NCBI RefSeq assembly: GCF_001187555.1
Contig: NZ_LFIJ01000002.1
Coordinates: 1,426,545-1,490,544, forward strand
DNA: 64,000 bases
Source of the DNA: Gilvimarinus polysaccharolyticus
GTDB taxonomy: Bacteria > Pseudomonadota > Gammaproteobacteria > Pseudomonadales > Cellvibrionaceae
Direction of reading: 5' to 3'
Below are positions 26,487 through 62,121 of this stretch, piece by piece. Below the pieces are notes generated by a model. That model was not told the origin of the DNA and did no database searches. It was given only the letters and a program-made list of their open reading frames with translations. Made by a program: the position numbers and the translations under genes. Position 1 is the first letter of the stretch, and each line of letters begins with the position of its first letter.

Positions 26487-26498
26487 GACAACGTTGTC
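26487..26498. promoter_or_regulatory. NagR/LacI-type operator before the hexosaminidase gene
   Basis: Perfect palindrome GACAACGTTGTC, followed by ATTT. A TAGACA overlapping its left side and TGCAAT 18 bases on could be -35 and -10, so repression would block RNA polymerase. It matches the core of LacI-family NagR boxes as I recall them from Xanthomonas and Alteromonadales. The same 12-mer occurs four more times in the window. Confidence 0.75.
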
Positions 26499-29146: not shown

Positions 29147-29684
29147 ACCAAGCTGAAACTAGAACGTAGCCGGCGGTAATACTTGCCGTCGGCGGGGGGC
29201 TTTAGTTACTTTAAGCAACGTTGTCAGGTGTTTTTTACCGAGCAAAAGAAAGTTAAATTTTTTCATTGGTTAATACTGTTTTTTGGCTTCTAACTTGCTG
29301 TTTTGTAAGACTATTGTCAATTATGGTTTGTTTGACCATAAGGGTTGGCCGTAAAAAACATTGTTTTTGTGCTATTGACAACGTTGTCCCAAGGGCGGTA
29401 AAACTACACTTGTGATATGCGGGTATGCCTAACAAACATAGGTTGGCTTACCTTACGTCATATTGATACGCCAGCTTTAATGCCTGTCTATCGACAACTT
29501 TATTTTAAAGGGGGAAACGACTCGCGTTATAAAAGTAACGCTACAAAATTAGAAAAAACATAGGGTTGTAAGCGTCCGGAGGTTACACCCGAGTACACGC
29601 TGGTTTGTTCGGCTGGTGCTGTAGTGTTGCGTTATTTTGCCTGAAACAACAAATAAGTTATTGCCACATATGAGGAGTTCCAAT
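29147..29684. other. Regulatory region between hexosaminidase and TonB receptor
   Basis: Holds a GC-rich hairpin at 29169-29193 (8-bp stem with one G-U pair, no T-run), a degenerate box GCAACGTTGTC at 29215-29225, the perfect box at 29377-29388 within a likely promoter, and then an unusually long leader of about 270 bases. The leader contains a small stem GCGTTA/TAACGC at 29524-29541. No gene is seen. Confidence 0.75.
29375..29404 (+). promoter_or_regulatory. Promoter with NagR/LacI-type operator before the TonB receptor
   Basis: TTGACA at 29375-29380 is a consensus -35 that runs into the palindrome GACAACGTTGTC at 29377-29388; TAAAAC at 29399-29404 is a fair -10 at 18-base spacing. Binding at the box would cover the -35. 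The degenerate half-conserved box 162 bases upstream (29215) might allow looping. Confidence 0.72.
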
Positions 29685-32842: not shown

Positions 32843-34369
32843 ATGAACAATAAGGTGGGTACTGTGACGGTACACAATGTCAGTAATATTGTAATTGTGG
32901 GTGGCGGCACGGCCGGCTGGATGACAGCCGCCAGTTTAAGTAAGCATTTTCGTAAAACTAAGGTTGCCATTACGGTAGTCGAGTCTTCGGCTATTGGCAC
33001 CGTTGGTGTAGGCGAGGCGACGATACCTACCTTGCGGCGCTTTTATGCTGAGCTCGGCCTTGATGATATGGCCGTTATGAAAGCGACTCAGGCGACTTGT
33101 AAGCTGGGTATTCAGTTTCAAGATTGGTATAAACAGGGGCATAGCTTTATTCACCCCTTTGGTCTGTTTGGCCAAAAAGCCAACGGTATTGATTTTCATC
33201 ATTACTGGTTACACCTTAAATCGTTGGGCGATACCAGTGCTTTGGCCGACTACTCACTGGGGGTTAATTTGGCCAAAAACAACAAGTTTATTGAGCCTTC
33301 TGTTAATCCGCCGTCAGAGCTGTCGGTTTATGATTGGGCGCTGCATTTTGATGCCGGGCTGTTTGCCAAATTAATGCGCGAGTATGCCGAAAGCCATGGA
33401 GTCACCTGTATAGATGCCAAAATTGACGGAGTTAACTGCGGCGAGGAAGGTATCGACTCATTAGTTTTAGATGATGGCCGTGTTATTAACGGCGATTTAT
33501 TTATTGATTGCTCGGGTTTTAAGGGGTTACTTATCGAGCAGGCATTGCATACCGGCTACCATGATTGGAGCGAGTGGCTGCAGTGCGACAGTGCGGTGGC
33601 GGTGCAGAGCACCAGAGCCGGCAGTGCGCCCTCTTATACGGTGACTCGCGCTCATCAGGCAGGCTGGCAGTGGCGTATTCCGCTGCAACACAGGGCGGGT
33701 AATGGCCATGTGTTTTGCAGCCGCTATATCAGCGAAGATGAAGCGATAGCAACACTTAAAAGTAATATAACCGATGAGCTATTACACGAGCCGCGCCGCT
33801 TTAAATTTACCCCCGGCCGACGCAAACTGGCTTGGAATAAAAACTGTATCGCGGTAGGGCTAGCCTCGGGTTTTTTAGAGCCGCTGGAGTCTACCAGTAT
33901 CGCGCTCATAGAAACCGCGATTGAAAAAATTCGGCGAGTGTTTCAACGGCCGTGGTATACCGCCGCTGCGGTTGATAATTTTAACGATTTAACGGCGCAG
34001 GAATATGAGCGAGTCAGAGATTTTATTATTTTGCACTACAAGTTAAATCAGCGAGAGGACGGCGAGCTTTGGCGTTATTGCCGCGAGATGGAGCTGCCAG
34101 AAATGCTGCGGAAAAAAGTGGCAGCGTTTCGCTCGCAAGGCGATTTGATCCGTTACCCTATTGAGATGTTTGGCGGCCCGAGCTGGGTGGCGATTTATGA
34201 TGGGTTTCAGTATTTGCCCGAGCAGTATGATCAGCGGGTAACCAAGATGAACCCTGAGTATTTACAAAAGGCCTTGGGCGAGATGCGCCAATCGGTCGCA
34301 TCTGCCGTGGCATCGGTGCAAAGTCACGATGATTTTATTGCTCAAAATTGCGCGGCGGCAGCGCCGTAG
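32843..34369 (+). CDS. FAD-dependent tryptophan-halogenase-like protein (copy 1)
   Basis: Flavoprotein of the PrnA/RebH fold, 508 aa. FAD motif IVIVGGGTAGWMTAA is at about 15-29, GTVGVGEATIPTLRRFY at about 53-69 and CKLGIQFQDW near 87-96 carries the Lys that matches the catalytic Lys79 of PrnA. QWRIPLQHR matches the WxWxIP motif, and FLEPLESTSIALIE carries the Glu/Ser pair. All key residues are therefore present. Genes of this type are regular companions of TonB receptors in sugar-uptake loci, where no halogenated product is known, so the substrate is open. Facing paralogue ends 32 bases away. Confidence 0.88.
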   Translation: MNNKVGTVTVHNVSNIVIVGGGTAGWMTAASLSKHFRKTKVAITVVESSAIGTVGVGEATIPTLRRFYAELGLDDMAVMKATQATCKLGIQFQDWYKQGHSFIHPFGLFGQKANGIDFHHYWLHLKSLGDTSALADYSLGVNLAKNNKFIEPSVNPPSELSVYDWALHFDAGLFAKLMREYAESHGVTCIDAKIDGVNCGEEGIDSLVLDDGRVINGDLFIDCSGFKGLLIEQALHTGYHDWSEWLQCDSAVAVQSTRAGSAPSYTVTRAHQAGWQWRIPLQHRAGNGHVFCSRYISEDEAIATLKSNITDELLHEPRRFKFTPGRRKLAWNKNCIAVGLASGFLEPLESTSIALIETAIEKIRRVFQRPWYTAAAVDNFNDLTAQEYERVRDFIILHYKLNQREDGELWRYCREMELPEMLRKKVAAFRSQGDLIRYPIEMFGGPSWVAIYDGFQYLPEQYDQRVTKMNPEYLQKALGEMRQSVASAVASVQSHDDFIAQNCAAAAP

Positions 34370-34400: not shown

Positions 34401-35951
34401 TTAATCTTCGGCCGCACAGTGACGGGCAATAAACTCGGCGTGCGAGGTGGGCTGGCTGGCGGCATTATGAATAGTGTCGCGTATTTTTTTCAGTTGTTGC
34501 TTTAGGTCGCCAAGCTCAATGGCATCGGCGCGGCGATCGTAATCGTTGGCATCGTAATGAAATCCCATATAAATAGCCGCCCAACTATCGGGCTCAAACG
34601 CCTCGGGCGATTGCGCCATAATATAACCACGGCTCTTATAAAGCTCCATCTTGTGCCGTAGGGTATCGGGTACCGCCATGTTTTGGCAGTGCCGCCAGAA
34701 CTCGGTGTCAGAACGGCGAGTGATTTTGTAATGCAAAATAATAAAGTCTCGAATTCGTTCAAACTCGTGACGATGCTGCCTGTTCACTTCGTCTATATTA
34801 CTTTGACAGTAGCCATGGTGCGGAAAAAACGTTAGTAACCGGCTGATTCCGGTTTGTATAAGGCTAATGCTGGTGGATTCTAATGGCTCTAAAAACCCCG
34901 AGGCCAGCCCTAATGCGTAACAGTTTTTATGCCAAACTTTCTTGCGGGTGCCAGTGACAAACTCAAAGGAACGAGGCTCTTTAATGGGCGCGCCGTCTAA
35001 GCCTTGTAGCAGTGTTTCTCGGGCTGTATCGGTGTTGCAAAAGGCGCTTGAGTAAACGTAACCGTTGCCGGTGCGGTGCTGTAATGGAATGCGCCACTGC
35101 CAGCCAGAATCTCGGGCAATGGTCAGGGTGTAAGGGGTTGGATCGCCATTTTTTTCGGTTTGTATGGCAATCGCACGATCGCAAGGTAGCCATTGCCGCC
35201 AGTCGTCGTATCCGGTTTTTAGCGATTGCTCGATAAGTAAGCCGCGAAACCCGGAACAATCGAGAAATAAATCACCTTGAATTTTCTTGCCGTTATCCAG
35301 CCGTATCGATTCAATATGACCGTTGCTCTGGTCGAGTTGGACGTGTTCAATTTTCCCTTCGAGTCTTATAACGCCACGTTGTTCGGCGTACTCACGTAAA
35401 AATAATGCGTAGCGACCGGCATCAAAATGGTAGGCGTAACCGTAATCGGCCAGTGGTGTTGGCGGATTAGGGTGAGGCTGGGCAAAGCGACCCTGCTTGG
35501 CGAGCTGAGCAGAAAAAGAGTAGTCGGACGGGTCTATCGCTTCGCCTTCGAGCTTTAAGCGATTTAGATAATGATAAAAATCGACGCCCTTTAATGGCAT
35601 GCCGTAATCGGCAAAAGGGTGAAAAAGCGTTGAGTTTGGTTGTCGCCAGTCACGAAACTCGATACCAAGTTTAAATGTGGCGTGAGTTTTTTTAATAAAC
35701 TCTAGCTCGTCTATCCCCAAAGAGTGATTAAAGGCGCGAATACTGGGGATGGTTGCTTCGCCAACACCAACAGTGCCGATTGCTTCGGATTCCACAAGGG
35801 TAATCTGTGGCGCGAGGGGTAGGCTACCTTGTTGCGTTAGTACCTCGAAGTGATGCGATAGTGCCGCCGCTGCCATCCAGCCTGCGGTGCCGCCGCCGGC
35901 GATAACAATACGTTCAATAGTGTTGGTTGTGCGAGCGGATTTTGTATTCAC
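34401..35951 (-). CDS. FAD-dependent tryptophan-halogenase-like protein (copy 2)
   Basis: Second halogenase-like flavoprotein, 516 aa, convergent with copy 1. It has IVIAGGGTAGWMAAAALS, GTVGVGEATIPSIRAF, the catalytic-Lys segment ATFKLGIEFRDW, GWQWRIPLQHRTGNG and FLEPLESTSISLIQ. It is clearly paralogous to copy 1 but has an insert after the first beta strand (EVLTQQGSLPLAPQ) and a different C-terminus. It is probably followed in the same transcript by nothing, since it ends next to copy 1. A half-matching box (TTAACGTTGTT near 35962) lies just upstream but is weak. Confidence 0.88.
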   Translation of the reverse strand: MNTKSARTTNTIERIVIAGGGTAGWMAAAALSHHFEVLTQQGSLPLAPQITLVESEAIGTVGVGEATIPSIRAFNHSLGIDELEFIKKTHATFKLGIEFRDWRQPNSTLFHPFADYGMPLKGVDFYHYLNRLKLEGEAIDPSDYSFSAQLAKQGRFAQPHPNPPTPLADYGYAYHFDAGRYALFLREYAEQRGVIRLEGKIEHVQLDQSNGHIESIRLDNGKKIQGDLFLDCSGFRGLLIEQSLKTGYDDWRQWLPCDRAIAIQTEKNGDPTPYTLTIARDSGWQWRIPLQHRTGNGYVYSSAFCNTDTARETLLQGLDGAPIKEPRSFEFVTGTRKKVWHKNCYALGLASGFLEPLESTSISLIQTGISRLLTFFPHHGYCQSNIDEVNRQHRHEFERIRDFIILHYKITRRSDTEFWRHCQNMAVPDTLRHKMELYKSRGYIMAQSPEAFEPDSWAAIYMGFHYDANDYDRRADAIELGDLKQQLKKIRDTIHNAASQPTSHAEFIARHCAAED

Positions 35952-37553: not shown

Positions 37554-38060
37554 AATCAGCTCTTTGTTCGCTACTTTATCGATGCGAGAGTGTAGCAGAA
37601 CTGAGCATCATTAAACGACATGGATTCACTTAACCCGTTTCAATAGTGACAATTGACGGTAGCCTTTAAACCGTTAGCAGTCACCGATAACTTGTATAAA
37701 TATAAACTCGGAGCTTGGTGTGTGTACTTGGCAAGAGGGACAAATATATTTTGTCTTGAAGCTGGCAATAAAGCCCAGCAGGGAACGTTATTACTGTGTC
37801 CGTCAGAGACGGCGCTGGTGTTGTGACGCTTAATGGTGGCGGATTTATTGTCTGTCGCTTGGTTTGTGTGGTGTGTTATGTCGTGTAGGCGGTACTTAGC
37901 GCGATGGCTTGATCCGCCAGCAGGGCAAATTAATAACGTAAATATCGATTATTACGCTTACTTATAGCTTATTTAGCCTAATTTTTCTTAAAAATGGTGT
38001 GGGGCATAAGCGCATGAGGTTATTGATTTCGCCTGGGTTAGATTTTTTTGGCCAAAATGA
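37554..38060. other. Gene-poor stretch upstream of rdgC and the nagK region
   Basis: About 500 bases without a credible gene; the rdgC promoter must lie in its left part. AT content rises toward 37930-38050. A minus-strand open frame at 37962-38192 has no start site or family resemblance. Confidence 0.6.
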
Positions 38061-38111
38061 TTGACAACGTTGTCCTTCGCGCCTAATGTGTAGCATATAG
38101 ACAACGTTGTC
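38061..38111 (+). promoter_or_regulatory. Strong promoter bracketed by two NagR/LacI-type operators
   Basis: TTGACA (38061-38066) and TAATGT (38084-38089) stand at the ideal 17-base spacing. One perfect palindrome GACAACGTTGTC (38063-38074) covers the -35 and the second (38100-38111) begins about four bases after the expected start near 38096. Centre-to-centre distance is 37 bases. This is a textbook design for tight repression by a LacI-family dimer or tetramer. Confidence 0.82.
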
Positions 38112-38352
38112 TTTGTGGGCGAGTAAGCTTGTAACCGGCGACAGCAGGTAACCCTTAGTGTTTTGTTGGGCGGTGTGTACCGCCTGCAGCAAGGGTAAAA
38201 ATTTAGTTGAGTTTGTTCATTATGGGCATTTTGGTCAGGCTCGCTAAATCATGATGCTAGGGATTGCATCATGCGATACGAAAGGACCGTAAGTATCATC
38301 TATCATGGCTCTCCTTGTGGTTGATGGCTCGATGCCATCAACCACCTTTTTT
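38096..38352 (+). ncRNA. Candidate GlcNAc-regulated small RNA or terminated leader
   Basis: About 257 bases between the operator-bracketed promoter and a strong terminator, with no credible gene inside (the two ATG frames give only 10 and 13 residues). Three structures are visible. The first is a nested stem at 38151-38196: outer ACCC/GGGT, then TTGTT/AGCAA, then GGCGGT/ACCGCC with loop GTGT. The second is a perfect 8-bp hairpin CATGATGC/GCATCATG at 38250-38273, and the third is the terminator stem. The unit lies 155 bases before nagK in the same direction, so it is either an independent small RNA or a leader where transcription can stop before nagK. I know no named family that fits. Confidence 0.45.
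38317..38352 (+). terminator. Intrinsic terminator between the operator promoter and nagK
   Basis: GTGGTTGATGGC (38317-38328) and GCCATCAACCAC (38334-38345) form a perfect 12-bp stem with a 5-base loop, followed by C and six T. No gene ends just upstream, which is why it is taken as the end of a small RNA or as an attenuator. Confidence 0.88.
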
Positions 38353-38506
38353 ACAGAAAATTATACTGAGTAGCTGTAAAAACTTATGGAGATAGCTTAA
38401 GGGCGTAAGCTCTATTGAAATTTAAATTTAACTGGCGGCTGGCATACTATTGCTTGTCTCGTAACGCCGGTTATCGTCCGATACAGAAAACATAGCGGAG
38501 TATTAC

Positions 38507-39418
38507 ATGGGGCAACAGTCTGTTGTTAACGACAACTTGTACCTAGGCATAGATGGCGGAGGCACTAAGTGCCGCGCGGTTATTGTTAATGAGTCTGGAG
38601 AAACACTAGGTGTCGGCAATGGCGGTCCCGCCAACCCTTACCATGGTGTCGCGCGGGCACTAGAGTCTATTGCTAACGCCGCCGATAGCGCGATAAGCAA
38701 TGCCGGTTTACCGCCCGATACAAAATCTAAGTTAGTGGCTGGGCTAGGCTTGGCGGGTGTTAATCTTCCCAGCCTGTTTCAAATCGTTCAGCAGTGGGAG
38801 CACCCTTTTAAAGCTCAGTTTTTAACGACCGATTTACACATCGCCTGCATTGCCGCTCACGAGCAAGATGATGGTGCCGTTATTGTTTCGGGTACTGGCT
38901 CATGTGGATTTGCGCATGTGGATGGTCAATCGCTTATTTTAGGTGCACACGGTTTTCCTTGCGGTGATGCCGGCAGTGGTGCTTGGATTGGCTTAGAATG
39001 TATTAAAGCTGTGCTACTCGACTCCGATGAGTTGGGTACTAAAACCATCATGACGGAACTCGTTGCCGAGCAATTACAGGCGCGTGGCATTATGATTGTC
39101 GAACGCTTAAACGGGGCAAAGTCGAGTGATTACGCCAAACTTGCGCCGTTAGTATTTGCCGCCGCCGAGCAGGGCGACGAAGTTGCTTTGCGGATTATTC
39201 GTGAAGGCGCTGATTATTTGACGGCGATGGCGCGACGTCTGTGGTCTAGCAATCCTCCGCGTATGTCGATGTTAGGTGGTGTATCGCAACGGATTGTTGA
39301 CTGGATGGATAAAGATATTGCCCAGCGTATGTCAGTACCATTACGGCAGCCAGAGTTTGGTGCTGTGCGTTATGCGCGCACTCAGTTTGCCGCTTTAGTG
39401 GGTTCAGTCGCCCAATAG
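38507..39418 (+). CDS. nagK: N-acetylglucosamine kinase (BadF/BcrA ATPase family)
   Basis: Phosphorylates GlcNAc (or glucosamine) after uptake. Actin-like ATPase fold of 303 residues: phosphate-1 motif LGIDGGGTKCRAVI at about 12-25, phosphate-2 VIVSGTGSCGFAH near 124-136, GDAGSGAWIG near 150-159 and the adenosine motif MSMLGGVSQRI near 247-257. The neighbours nagX and the LacI gene and the NagR-type boxes support GlcNAc as substrate; this type is called GspK in Vibrio and NagK elsewhere. A possible own promoter lies in the AT-rich stretch at 38415-38450. Confidence 0.88.
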   Translation: MGQQSVVNDNLYLGIDGGGTKCRAVIVNESGETLGVGNGGPANPYHGVARALESIANAADSAISNAGLPPDTKSKLVAGLGLAGVNLPSLFQIVQQWEHPFKAQFLTTDLHIACIAAHEQDDGAVIVSGTGSCGFAHVDGQSLILGAHGFPCGDAGSGAWIGLECIKAVLLDSDELGTKTIMTELVAEQLQARGIMIVERLNGAKSSDYAKLAPLVFAAAEQGDEVALRIIREGADYLTAMARRLWSSNPPRMSMLGGVSQRIVDWMDKDIAQRMSVPLRQPEFGAVRYARTQFAALVGSVAQ

Positions 39419-39455: not shown

Positions 39456-40532
39456 ATGGCTAAGCAACGATTTATCTCTTTAGATGTCATGCGAGGCCTA
39501 ACGTTGGCCTTAATGGTTTTGGTGAATACGCCAGGCTCTTGGTCTTATGTGTATACACCTTTTCTACACGCCGACTGGCATGGCGCCACGCCCACAGATT
39601 TTATATTTCCCTTCTTTTTGTTTATTGTTGGCTCGGCAATGTATTTTTCTAACCGTGCCAGCCAAGGCGTTAGTTATAGCGTCCGATCGGTTAAAATTTT
39701 GCGCCGCACCCTGCTCTTGTTTGTTATAGGGCTACTGCTAAATGCCTACCCTTTTACTGGCGATCTCGATCATTTAAGAATTTTAGGCGTACTGCAACGC
39801 ATTGCCTTGGCTTATGGTTTGGCCGCTTTTATTATCTGGCTGCCGGGTGTTTATCGTCTGCTGGTTTCTGCTTTTTTATTGCTTGGATATTATTTATTGC
39901 TCAATCTTGTGCCCGAGCCCTATACCGTGGCCGATAATTTAGTACGGCAGCTAGACTTACTTGTGTTGGGCGCTGATCATTTGTGGCAAGGCAAAGGTAT
40001 GGCGTTTGACCCTGAAGGTTTACTAAGCACTTTGCCAGCGGTGGTTAATGTTATTTTTGGCTTTGAAGCTGCGCGTATTTTGGTGGCGAGTGATAATAAG
40101 CATCGAGCACAAATAGTGTTAGCGCTTATGTCAGTTGCGGCTATTGTAGCAGCGCTATTGTGGCATCCAGTCTTTCCTATTAATAAATCGCTTTGGAGCA
40201 GCCCGTTTGTGCTACTCAGTTCTGGCGCGGCAATAGCTGTATTGTTGCTGTTGGTACAGTTAGAGAGGTTGAGTGTTGTTAGGCCTGTATTTAATGCCTT
40301 TACGATGCTAGGCAAAAACCCGCTATTTATTTATATTTTAAGTATTGTGTGGGCTAAAAGTTATTACCTATTTAGCATTAACGGTGGGTCATCGTATCAG
40401 TACTTTTTTGAGTTCTTGGCGCGCTGGATGTCTAACTACAATGCATCACTGGTGTTTGCGTTAATCCATGTGGCGGTGTTGTGGTGTATTGCTTGGTGGC
40501 TTGATCGTAAAAATATCGTCATAGCTTTATAG
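39456..40532 (+). CDS. nagX: NagX-type membrane protein (DUF5009)
   Basis: Polytopic inner-membrane protein of 358 residues related to heparan-glucosaminide N-acetyltransferase. The start RFISLDVMRGLTLALMVLVN and PTDFIFPFFLFIVGSAMYFS are diagnostic; about ten membrane segments follow. NagX is found in GlcNAc loci of proteobacteria and is thought to aid GlcNAc uptake or conversion; its activity is not firmly known to me. It lies 37 bases after nagK, in one operon, and ends at a two-way terminator. Confidence 0.9.
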   Translation: MAKQRFISLDVMRGLTLALMVLVNTPGSWSYVYTPFLHADWHGATPTDFIFPFFLFIVGSAMYFSNRASQGVSYSVRSVKILRRTLLLFVIGLLLNAYPFTGDLDHLRILGVLQRIALAYGLAAFIIWLPGVYRLLVSAFLLLGYYLLLNLVPEPYTVADNLVRQLDLLVLGADHLWQGKGMAFDPEGLLSTLPAVVNVIFGFEAARILVASDNKHRAQIVLALMSVAAIVAALLWHPVFPINKSLWSSPFVLLSSGAAIAVLLLLVQLERLSVVRPVFNAFTMLGKNPLFIYILSIVWAKSYYLFSINGGSSYQYFFEFLARWMSNYNASLVFALIHVAVLWCIAWWLDRKNIVIAL

Positions 40533-40612: not shown

Positions 40613-41637
40613 CTACGATGTTGGTGCGGCGCAGGTTGATTCTCGCACAATCAGTTTTGGATGGTAACCTTCGCTTGGCAGTGCTTTGTTGGCATTGGCG
40701 GGTTGCTTGATTGTTTTTATCAGTAGCGCGGTGGCCTTTTGTGCAATGGTACTGGTGGGCTGAGCGGCGGTGGTGAGGTTTGGCCATGCTTGACGAGAGA
40801 ATGGGCTGTCCTCAAAACCGGCAATAGACAGCTCGGTGGGAACATCAATGCCGGCAATTCGTGCTGCAAATAAAGTTCCTGCCGCTATTTCATCGTTACA
40901 GGCGAATATTGCCGTGGGGTGAGCCTGCTTGCTGGCTAATAGCTTGCTGGTGCGCTCAACACCAGATTCAAATGAATAACTGCCGGGTATAATAAATTTA
41001 CGGTTGGGTTTTATGTTGTGGCTCTTCATGGCGGCGTTAAAGCCTGCCAGTCGCTCGCCACTAGATTTGTGCTCTTCATCGCCACCGAGAAATGCGATAT
41101 TTTTATGCCCCAAGTTAATTAAGTGCTCGGTAATGGCATAAGCGGCATTATGATCGTCAATAAATACGCAGGGTGACGTTGTATCGGGCGCTTGTGAGCC
41201 GGATAGAATACGCACAAATTTTACCTTGCGCTCCGAGATCGCCTTAAGAATTTCAGCGTTTTCGGATATCGGTGGTGTTAGCACCAAGCCGCCCACACGG
41301 CTGCGGTCGATCATCTCTAGAATTTCTTGAATAATCGTTCGGCTGGATGCATCGCAAGGGTGAATGACCAGCTCGTAACCTTGTTTTCCGCATTCGTCAA
41401 GAATACCGCGCTGCATATCAATAACGTAGTTACTGTTAGGGTTGTCGTAAATAAAACCGATGGATGAAGCTGCGCCACGCAGGCCGATAGGTTAGGGCGA
41501 TAATTTAGTTGTTTAACAGCTATCCAGACTTTTTCTTGAAGCTCTTTACCTACGGTTCCTTCGTTATTAATAACTCTGGATACGGTTTTAAACGAAACTC
41601 CAGCCAGTTTTGCGACATCTTTGATAGTCGGTTTCAT
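40613..41637 (-). pseudogene. LacI-family regulator, frameshifted (candidate NagR)
   Basis: The first 51 codons (from 41637) read a normal LacI DNA-binding domain, [20 protein letters not shown] ... [11 protein letters not shown]. The frame then shifts near 41480-41490. The other frame continues the family sequence [15 protein letters not shown] ... [12 protein letters not shown] and runs through the full sugar-binding domain to 40613. Comparison with the family's usual YRPNxxARxLR suggests a loss of 7 bases, which would remove one copy of a GCGTGGC-like unit and two codons. As it stands the gene gives a 106-residue protein with an unrelated tail. It sits beside nagK-nagX and is the natural candidate to bind the GACAACGTTGTC boxes. 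A sequencing error is the alternative. Confidence 0.85.
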
Positions 41638-60961: not shown

Positions 60962-62121
60962 GCTGACTCCACGGAGGTATGAGATTGATGTTGGCCGGCA
61001 ACCCAGGTATTACGTACCTGAAAGTCACTGTCAAAGTGGACTAGGTCGGCGCGCCAGCCAGTGGCGATCTGACCTAGTTTGTTATCTAATTTTAAGTATT
61101 GCGCAGGGTAGAGCGACGCCATACGCAGGCATTCATCCAATTCAACTCCGACGTCGGTATGGCAAATACGCACAGCATCGATCATGCCTATAGCGCTGCC
61201 CGCTAGACGGCCTTCGGCGTTCACCAGAGCACCGTCCTTTTCAAAAATGGTTTCGCCGTAAATAGAGAACGATTTTTGCTGGCTGCCCACGGTCGACATA
61301 GCGTCGGTGACTAAATACAGTTTTCCTTTGGATTTGGCTTTTAATGCGGTACGGACGGCACCTGGGTGTACATGGTGGTTGTCGCAAATAATCCCGCACC
61401 AGGTGTTGTCGCTTTCAAGCGCGGCGCCCACAACCCCCGGATCACGGCCCACCAGTGGTCGCATGGCGTTGTACAGATGAGTAAAACCGCTAAGGCCCTC
61501 TTTGATACCGGCGATTACCTGCTCGTAACGGGCGTTGGTGTGACCGGCGCAGACGGTCAGGCCGGCATCTACCAAGACTTTAATTTGCCCGGTGTGCGTG
61601 TGCTCGGGCGCCAAGGTCAGCATGGTTGTAAAGTCGCGGCTTATCTCGGTAAGCCATTGGGTGTCTTCGGGTTCCATTTCTCGAATATAACGTGCGTTGT
61701 GCGCGCCGCGTTTTTCCATATCAAAGAACGGGCCTTCAATATGAATGCCTAATACTCCGCTCATACCCGAGGCTACCGCATCGGCTACGGCTTTAACGCC
61801 AGCTTGGTGAGTCGCTCGGGTGTCGCTGATTAGGGTGGGTAGCATGCTGGTAGTGCCCGTTGGGCGGTGGCCATCGAGCATGGTTTGCAGCGCCGTTATA
61901 CTGGTATCATTGGTAAAGAAGGCGCCGCCGCCGCCGTTGACTTGCAAGTCAATAAAGCCGGGCGCCAAGATGCCGCCATCAAGGTCGATAACTTCGGCAT
62001 TGTGGACAACGTTGTCATTTTCGGGCGTAAAAATCAGTTTGTCGCCGTCGATAACCAATACCTGATTATTTAAAAATTTTGTGCCAGTAAAAATCTTGGC
62101 ACCTACAAGTACTTGTTTCAT
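60958..62121 (-). CDS. nagA: N-acetylglucosamine-6-phosphate deacetylase NagA
   Basis: Removes acetate from GlcNAc-6-phosphate. Metal and substrate motifs: [17 protein letters not shown] at about 53-69, [11 protein letters not shown] near 122-132, [10 protein letters not shown] near 190-199, [11 protein letters not shown] near 213-223 and the catalytic VTDAMST. 387 aa, normal length. Codons 36-39 (Asp-Asn-Val-Val) are spelled exactly by the palindrome GACAACGTTGTC. No such box is found in the 316 bases upstream. Confidence 0.96.
62005..62016. promoter_or_regulatory. NagR/LacI-type operator inside the nagA coding region
   Basis: Perfect GACAACGTTGTC at nucleotides 106-117 of nagA, followed by ATTT on the plus strand like the hexosaminidase box. 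It could act as a roadblock to elongation or be a chance match within codons. Confidence 0.5.

Follow-up and report, generated by a model that had tools for sequence, protein, structure and literature searches.

What does the operator-bracketed promoter upstream of the GlcNAc kinase gene nagK of Gilvimarinus polysaccharolyticus transcribe, a small RNA (sRNA) that acts elsewhere or a leader of nagK itself? We have examined this locus within a 64,000-nt stretch of DNA (the window) and in eight Gilvimarinus species, this one included. In the reading that we prefer, with a probability of about 0.57, the element makes a GlcNAc-induced, trans-acting sRNA that blocks the translation of cellulose and xylose genes and is also the leader of nagK-nagX. 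If this is true, one repressor-controlled RNA would tie the use of cellulose and xylose to the sensing of chitin, and the exact sites at which it does so are open to test. The use of plant fibre by Gilvimarinus, a marine plant-fibre degrader, may then be lowered while it feeds on chitin. To our knowledge, little is understood of how chitin ranks beside cellulose and xylan for generalist marine degraders.

The locus contains the following features:

38061..38089, plus strand: promoter, with -35 TTGACA (38061-38066), a 17-nt spacer and -10 TAATGT (38084-38089)
38063..38074, unstranded: NagR-type operator 1, over the -35, a perfect GACAACGTTGTC, present in 8/8 species
38100..38111, unstranded: NagR-type operator 2, just downstream of the predicted start, a perfect GACAACGTTGTC, present in 8/8 species
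38096..38352, plus strand: small RNA or nagK leader of ~257 nt (start predicted; supported by fold, conservation and covariation)
38507..39418, plus strand: nagK, GlcNAc kinase of the SO3507 type (NCBIfam NF046058, 456 bits; equivalog cut-off 370)
39456..40532, plus strand: nagX-like membrane acetyltransferase gene (Pfam HGSNAT_cat; 148 bits for NagX_SO_3504, short of its cut-off of 480)
40613..41637, minus strand: LacI-family regulator gene, probable NagR, with its frame broken by a 7-base gap relative to five relatives

The promoter, with one operator over the -35 and another past the start, had been pointed out in the preliminary description of this DNA, and direct reading confirms it. Its 17-nt spacing is the same in all eight species, while the -10 of the seven relatives reads TAAAGT in five, TAGAGT in one and TAAGGT in one. 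A generic promoter scan does not list it, because TAATGT matches TATAAT at only three positions and the scan needs 4/6 per hexamer. The distance from operator 1 to operator 2 is 37 bases in seven species and 29 in the remaining one. All eight Gilvimarinus genomes retain the whole set of promoter, two operators, RNA, terminator and nagK. A promoter with two operators is also found in two further genera (loci L009 and L010), there without the RNA.

The operator itself is commoner than expected by chance. With up to two mismatches, GACAACGTTGTC has 10 matches in the window, against 2.2 +/- 1.5 in 100 shuffles. Perfect sites number 10 in the 3.74-Mb genome, five of them inside the window; they make up nine places, and the element is the only place with two sites. 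Three of the sites in the window are as follows:

26487..26498, unstranded: operator before the GH20 hexosaminidase gene
29377..29388, unstranded: operator before a TonB-dependent receptor gene
62005..62016, unstranded: perfect operator within the 5' coding part of nagA, ~105 bases after the nagA start

Most of the nine places have nag and chitinolytic neighbours. Operators stand before genes for a NagP-like transporter (520 bits for NagP_SO3503, short of its cut-off of 625), an acetate-CoA ligase, two TonB receptors, GH20, a GH19 chitinase and a carbohydrate-deacetylase-like protein. Judged by these neighbours, GACAACGTTGTC marks a putative NagR-type GlcNAc/chitin regulon. A TonB-receptor gene with a NagR-type operator adjoins a pair of tryptophan-halogenase family genes (Pfam), at 32843-34369 on the plus strand and 34401-35951 on the minus strand.

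A counterpart is known from Shewanella oneidensis: there the LacI-type NagR, which GlcNAc releases from the DNA, has a binding site upstream of nagK and represses nagP, nagK-nagB-nagA, hex and an omp gene of the outer membrane (PMC3223726). The Gilvimarinus operator set, at GlcNAc/chitin genes including nagK, resembles this regulon; the members described in the portion of that paper drawn on here include no small RNA, unlike the case in Gilvimarinus (PMC3223726). In the eight-species set, the LacI gene lies downstream of nagX in G. polysaccharolyticus and in five named relatives, and is in frame in those five. Since its NCBIfam matches include no NagR model and all that were listed score below their cut-offs, we name it NagR by context. 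The frameshift of this gene may mean that the repressor has been lost in nature, in which case the isolate may be derepressed, or it may stem from a fault in the assembly. From the layout and from the Shewanella NagR, we infer that without GlcNAc a LacI-type repressor would occupy both operators and block the promoter.

The RNA that this promoter would make has the following parts:

38201..38249, plus strand: hairpin 1, with double changes (in some species) in 10/17 pairs
38219-38232, plus strand: invariant apical stretch of hairpin 1, ATTATGGGCATTTT
38250..38273, plus strand: hairpin 2, with double changes in 3/8 pairs
38275..38297, plus strand: hairpin 3 (GATAC...GTATC), invariant
38317..38352, plus strand: intrinsic terminator of a 12-bp stem and T6, with double changes in 5/12 pairs

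The conserved domain is 38200-38352, and the 5' part (38112-38200) is not conserved across Gilvimarinus. The hairpins followed by a perfect 12-bp terminator and a T-run had been described before and are found as stated (terminator 38317-38345, T6 38347-38352). The RNA folds better than its shuffles (z -4.2; 1/200 equally good). Covarying stems in relatives, named beforehand as a test of the RNA, are indeed seen: compensatory changes occur in 17/38 pairs, a level reached by 0/500 shuffles. In the alignment 96.7% of the cells pair, compared with 27-54% when it is slid. Covariation says nothing for or against hairpin 3, since this hairpin never varies. A covariance-model search, proposed together with that test, has found the RNA in 8/8 Gilvimarinus genomes and in 0/136 other genomes of the family Cellvibrionaceae, under the stricter filter settings of Infernal, at which part of the weak matches is lost. 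Rfam gives no match at gathering score over the whole window and only two chance-level matches (E 3.3 and 3.4) on 37950-38520; that is, no covariance-model match places the RNA in ChiX or another Rfam family. No plus-strand frame is common to the eight species, and a coding role has been rejected on this ground. As expected of an sRNA, it has a promoter and an intrinsic terminator of its own in sequence, and it is non-coding with a conserved, accessible seed. Overall, the promoter, structure and conservation of the element are solid.

The seed lies between hairpin 3 and the terminator:

38293..38316, plus strand: invariant stretch GTATCATCTATCATGGCTCTCCTT, 24/24 columns invariant in eight species
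38302-38314, plus strand: pairing core ATCATGGCTCTCC, inside the invariant 24 nt

The first five nucleotides of the stretch close hairpin 3. Its complement, AAGGAGAGCCATGATAGATGATAC, consists of a Shine-Dalgarno (SD) site, a spacer and an ATG, with AAGGAGAGCCATG as the ribosome site and start codon. To open the pairing core costs 1.1-5.2 kcal/mol in the eight species (4.0 in G. polysaccharolyticus). Among 84,980 species genomes, an exact 20-mer of the seed turned up in six contigs, each of them from Gilvimarinus, in a search that may omit records of the window's own genome. In that genome, the 20-mer complement with up to three mismatches matches the RNA itself only.

As the complement is a good ribosome site with a start, the conserved stretch might instead be accounted for by a tiny minus-strand gene (AAGGAGAGCC-ATG ATA GAT GAT...), and it would give MIDDTY-like peptides in 7/8 species and MIDDTF in the eighth. 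We consider such a gene very improbable and have rejected it, since the length of the frame is inconsistent: it stops after 8 codons in one species (G006) and after 20-28 in five, and runs open to the segment end in two. Moreover, the flanking stems covary as RNA, and the promoter, operators and T-run suit the plus strand.

How the RNA relates to nagK is the next point. It had been stated that no gene lies between the element and nagK, and no open reading frame of at least 80 aa is present there; nagK does follow the terminator, at a distance of 154 bases (ATG at 38507). Between the terminator and nagK, no promoter better than shuffles was found in 8/8 species by a simple consensus score, and nagK of Shewanella is under NagR control, so nagK is probably made by read-through past the terminator. 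The RNA would therefore be both leader and sRNA. When GlcNAc is present, the RNA would be made and would mostly stop at the intrinsic terminator, with read-through giving the nagK mRNA. It has also to be asked whether the RNA is a cis-acting leader and nothing else: it would sense GlcNAc-6-P, GlcN-6-P or a protein and either terminate or let transcription run on into nagK, and once terminated it would have no role in trans. This seems rather unlikely to us: the synteny of RNA and nagK in 8/8 species, the same lack of an above-shuffle promoter and the covarying domain with its two invariant segments would all suit it, but the consensus fold is a single structure that has the terminator formed and shows no antiterminator, no Rfam riboswitch matches, and the invariant 24 nt are complementary to start regions of sugar genes, which leaders need not be. 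Of the two proposals made in the preliminary description, the repressor-controlled sRNA of ~257 nt has gained from the conservation in the genus of operators, promoter, covarying stems and terminator, while the conditional nagK leader has been neither borne out nor refuted.

In the preferred reading, that of a trans-acting sRNA, the invariant seed AUCAUGGCUCUCC would pair across the start codon and ribosome-binding site of certain genes for plant polysaccharides, namely two GH9 cellulase genes in G. polysaccharolyticus and xylB in most species. Pairing should block translation, and chitin sugar would thus be used before cellulose and xylose. We have searched the eight genomes for the seed complement with two patterns. 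GGAGAGCCAT has 47 matches (eight being the RNA itself), versus 22 for the reversed pattern. All of the 39 non-self matches were read: five lie in an element near a sugar porter (see below), 30 elsewhere, and four at clear gene starts, i.e., those of xylB and a 287-aa gene (G002), a GH9 gene (G000) and an alcohol dehydrogenase gene (G007). GGAGAGYCATG has 27 matches (again eight in the RNA itself), versus 8 for its reversed pattern. Its 19 non-self matches comprise three in the porter element, seven elsewhere and nine at gene starts (GH9 twice, xylB four times, alcohol dehydrogenase and two short unknowns).

In the own genome, GGAGAGYCATG has only two non-self sites, and both are GH9 gene starts. 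The two genes encode proteins of 836 aa and of 1249 aa, the latter with CBM4_9 and CBM2 domains, and each start can form 15 contiguous pairs with the RNA, G-U included. Of 510 sampled gene starts, these two take the top two ranks, whether or not the opening cost is counted. These 510 starts were called by a simple open-reading-frame rule from 36 stretches of 20 kb of the own genome, set at round coordinates, with one of the two GH9 sites known beforehand; pairing energy was thus scored over only ~720 kb. Among the three GH9 genes detected in this own-genome sample, two pair. The third (1052 aa, L175), first seen as a weak blastp match, reaches -5.3, the 502nd of 510, with no pairing. Since this gene does not pair, GH9 genes as a class have been rejected as the target. 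TonB-receptor mRNAs had been put forward for target prediction, and one TonB-receptor start is indeed third of the 510 by duplex energy (-22.5); the best predicted partners are the cellulase and xylB starts and a decoy RNA.

xylB is the first gene of a xylB-epimerase-xylA operon (302 bits with the XylB model, whose cut-off is 380), and its start is complementary to the RNA in 7/8 species, to a varying degree. The duplex energy (kcal/mol) reaches -24.9 in G. agarilyticus, -20.6 in the own genome and -19.4 to -19.5 in three species; it is weak in two (-15.4 and -15.8), and the value of -11.4 in one is no real match. In the seven matching species the spacer is AGCC or AGTC, where the T retains pairing with G. 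With a mean of -18.3, xylB is the best of 10 gene families (next -13.1), each represented by 3 to 8 species and with some galM starts misplaced. When the energies on xylB are summed over the eight species, 5/1000 shuffled seeds match the true one. Pattern searches had led to xylB and to one GH9 gene in the first place, so the later tests on these two genes are not independent.

On the other hand, a seed complementary to SD and ATG pairs fairly well with many starts. An energy of -20.6 is reached by 7/510 sampled starts, and with opening costs 12/510 equal or beat the own xylB; within the window, 2/49 gene starts reach -20.5, a NYN-domain gene among them. The targets and the decoy should be taken as predictions against a noticeable background. 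Further points against the preferred reading are the broken frame of the regulator gene, the weak or missing xylB pairing in three species, the lack of the decoy in three (see below) and the hairpin-1 loop, for which no partner came to light. Alternatively, a trans-acting sRNA might have other main targets, with GH9, xylB and the decoy as side matches of an anti-SD/anti-AUG seed. The frequency of background matches, the ~720 kb to which energy scoring was confined, the variation of exact seed sites from species to species and the GH9 gene without pairing are consistent with this explanation, which we nevertheless hold to be unlikely, since both exact non-self 11-mer sites in the own genome are GH9 starts, and xylose is what xylB and the porter element have in common.

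The porter element is a short hairpin followed by a terminator, upstream of a sugar porter gene in 5/8 species. In sequence the porter comes closest to XylE (369 bits with the XylE model, whose cut-off is 608). The hairpin has the form GTCGG-loop-CCGAC (CCGGC in one species) with the loop text GAGAGCCAT. GTCGGGAGAGCCAT is invariant in 5/5 elements, the flanks differ, and the terminator sequence differs between species. Duplexes of the seed with these elements range from -21.0 to -28.4. In G. chinensis, ATAAGTCGGGAGAGCCATGATC of the element resembles ATAAGTGGAGAGCCATGATC, the xylB start of G. agarilyticus. In sequence and fold, the element of these five species would give what is expected of a decoy, a terminated RNA exposing the seed complement, and we consider it a likely decoy for the sRNA. 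With a loop like the xylB start, this RNA would soak up the sRNA in those five species, and not in G. polysaccharolyticus; the element was not found in G. polysaccharolyticus, G. agarilyticus and G. sp. 2_MG-2023. If true, this would be a natural decoy that differs between sister species. By eye, the own genome and G. agarilyticus (L070, L071) have kept promoter-like stretches near the porter, without the decoy hairpin and terminator. A TATGAT-like box after the porter-element terminator, also seen by eye, may be the promoter of the porter itself.

Taken together, the sRNA and the decoy would allow a more specific, three-part circuit that ranks polymers. In it, a chitin-sugar repressor drives an sRNA that silences cellulase and xylose-kinase translation, and a small RNA from the xylose-porter locus, mimicking the xylB start, disarms the sRNA. 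That is, two sugar regulons would compete via one seed, which stays fixed while decoy and targets turn over from species to species. We offer this circuit as a tentative possibility.

Among known sRNAs, Spot 42 (Spf), a global sRNA of E. coli controlled by CRP, keeps genes for secondary sugars repressed in response to a carbon signal. The likeness lies in the repression of secondary sugars by an sRNA, while the Gilvimarinus RNA would be tied to one sugar-specific repressor. A GlcNAc-responsive RNA had been thought to be new. This does not hold in general, since Bacteroides thetaiotaomicron has GibS, a 145-nt intergenic sRNA conserved in one genus, which is raised by GlcNAc (PMC7366714). GibS pairs around the start codon of metabolic genes, and a role in carbon priority has been proposed for it (PMC7366714). 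The Gilvimarinus RNA is likewise intergenic and genus-limited, and is predicted to be raised by GlcNAc and to pair at start codons; as far as the consulted part of that report goes, GibS differs in its phylum, its Bacteroides promoter motif, its seed in an unstructured 5' part and its targets (a glucan-branching enzyme and others), and neither LacI-type operators nor a decoy are mentioned (PMC7366714). ChiX of E. coli is a chitin-sugar sRNA countered by the RNA decoys chbBC and ChiZ, the latter from the 5' UTR of a transporter (PMC7815308), and the predicted decoy of the Gilvimarinus sRNA is similarly located at a porter locus. For ChiX, as described in the excerpted part of that source, the use of chitosugars goes with low ChiX and high chitoporin (PMC7815308), whereas GlcNAc would raise the Gilvimarinus sRNA, which would act on genes for other sugars. 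Phrase searches of the literature, with most subscription papers outside their scope, have found no described sRNA in Gilvimarinus or Cellvibrionaceae, and a phrase search for sRNA base-pairing with xylB or xylulokinase translation has found none either. Three features of the proposed scheme look new: its control by a pair of NagR-type operators, its targeting of cellulase and xylose genes, and a decoy, at the porter of the opposing sugar, with a likeness to a target start.

For the other invariant part of the RNA, the loop of hairpin 1, no partner was found in the eight genomes via AATGCCCATAA. This pattern has 37 matches, eight of which are the RNA itself; 24/29 others were read, and no homologous neighbour gene recurs among them. 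In G. algae, two near-identical hairpins (L092 and L117) stand directly after gene stops, with GGAGAGCCATA(A)T...GCCCATC. They show partial complementarity to the two invariant segments of the RNA and resemble a repeat family at gene ends.
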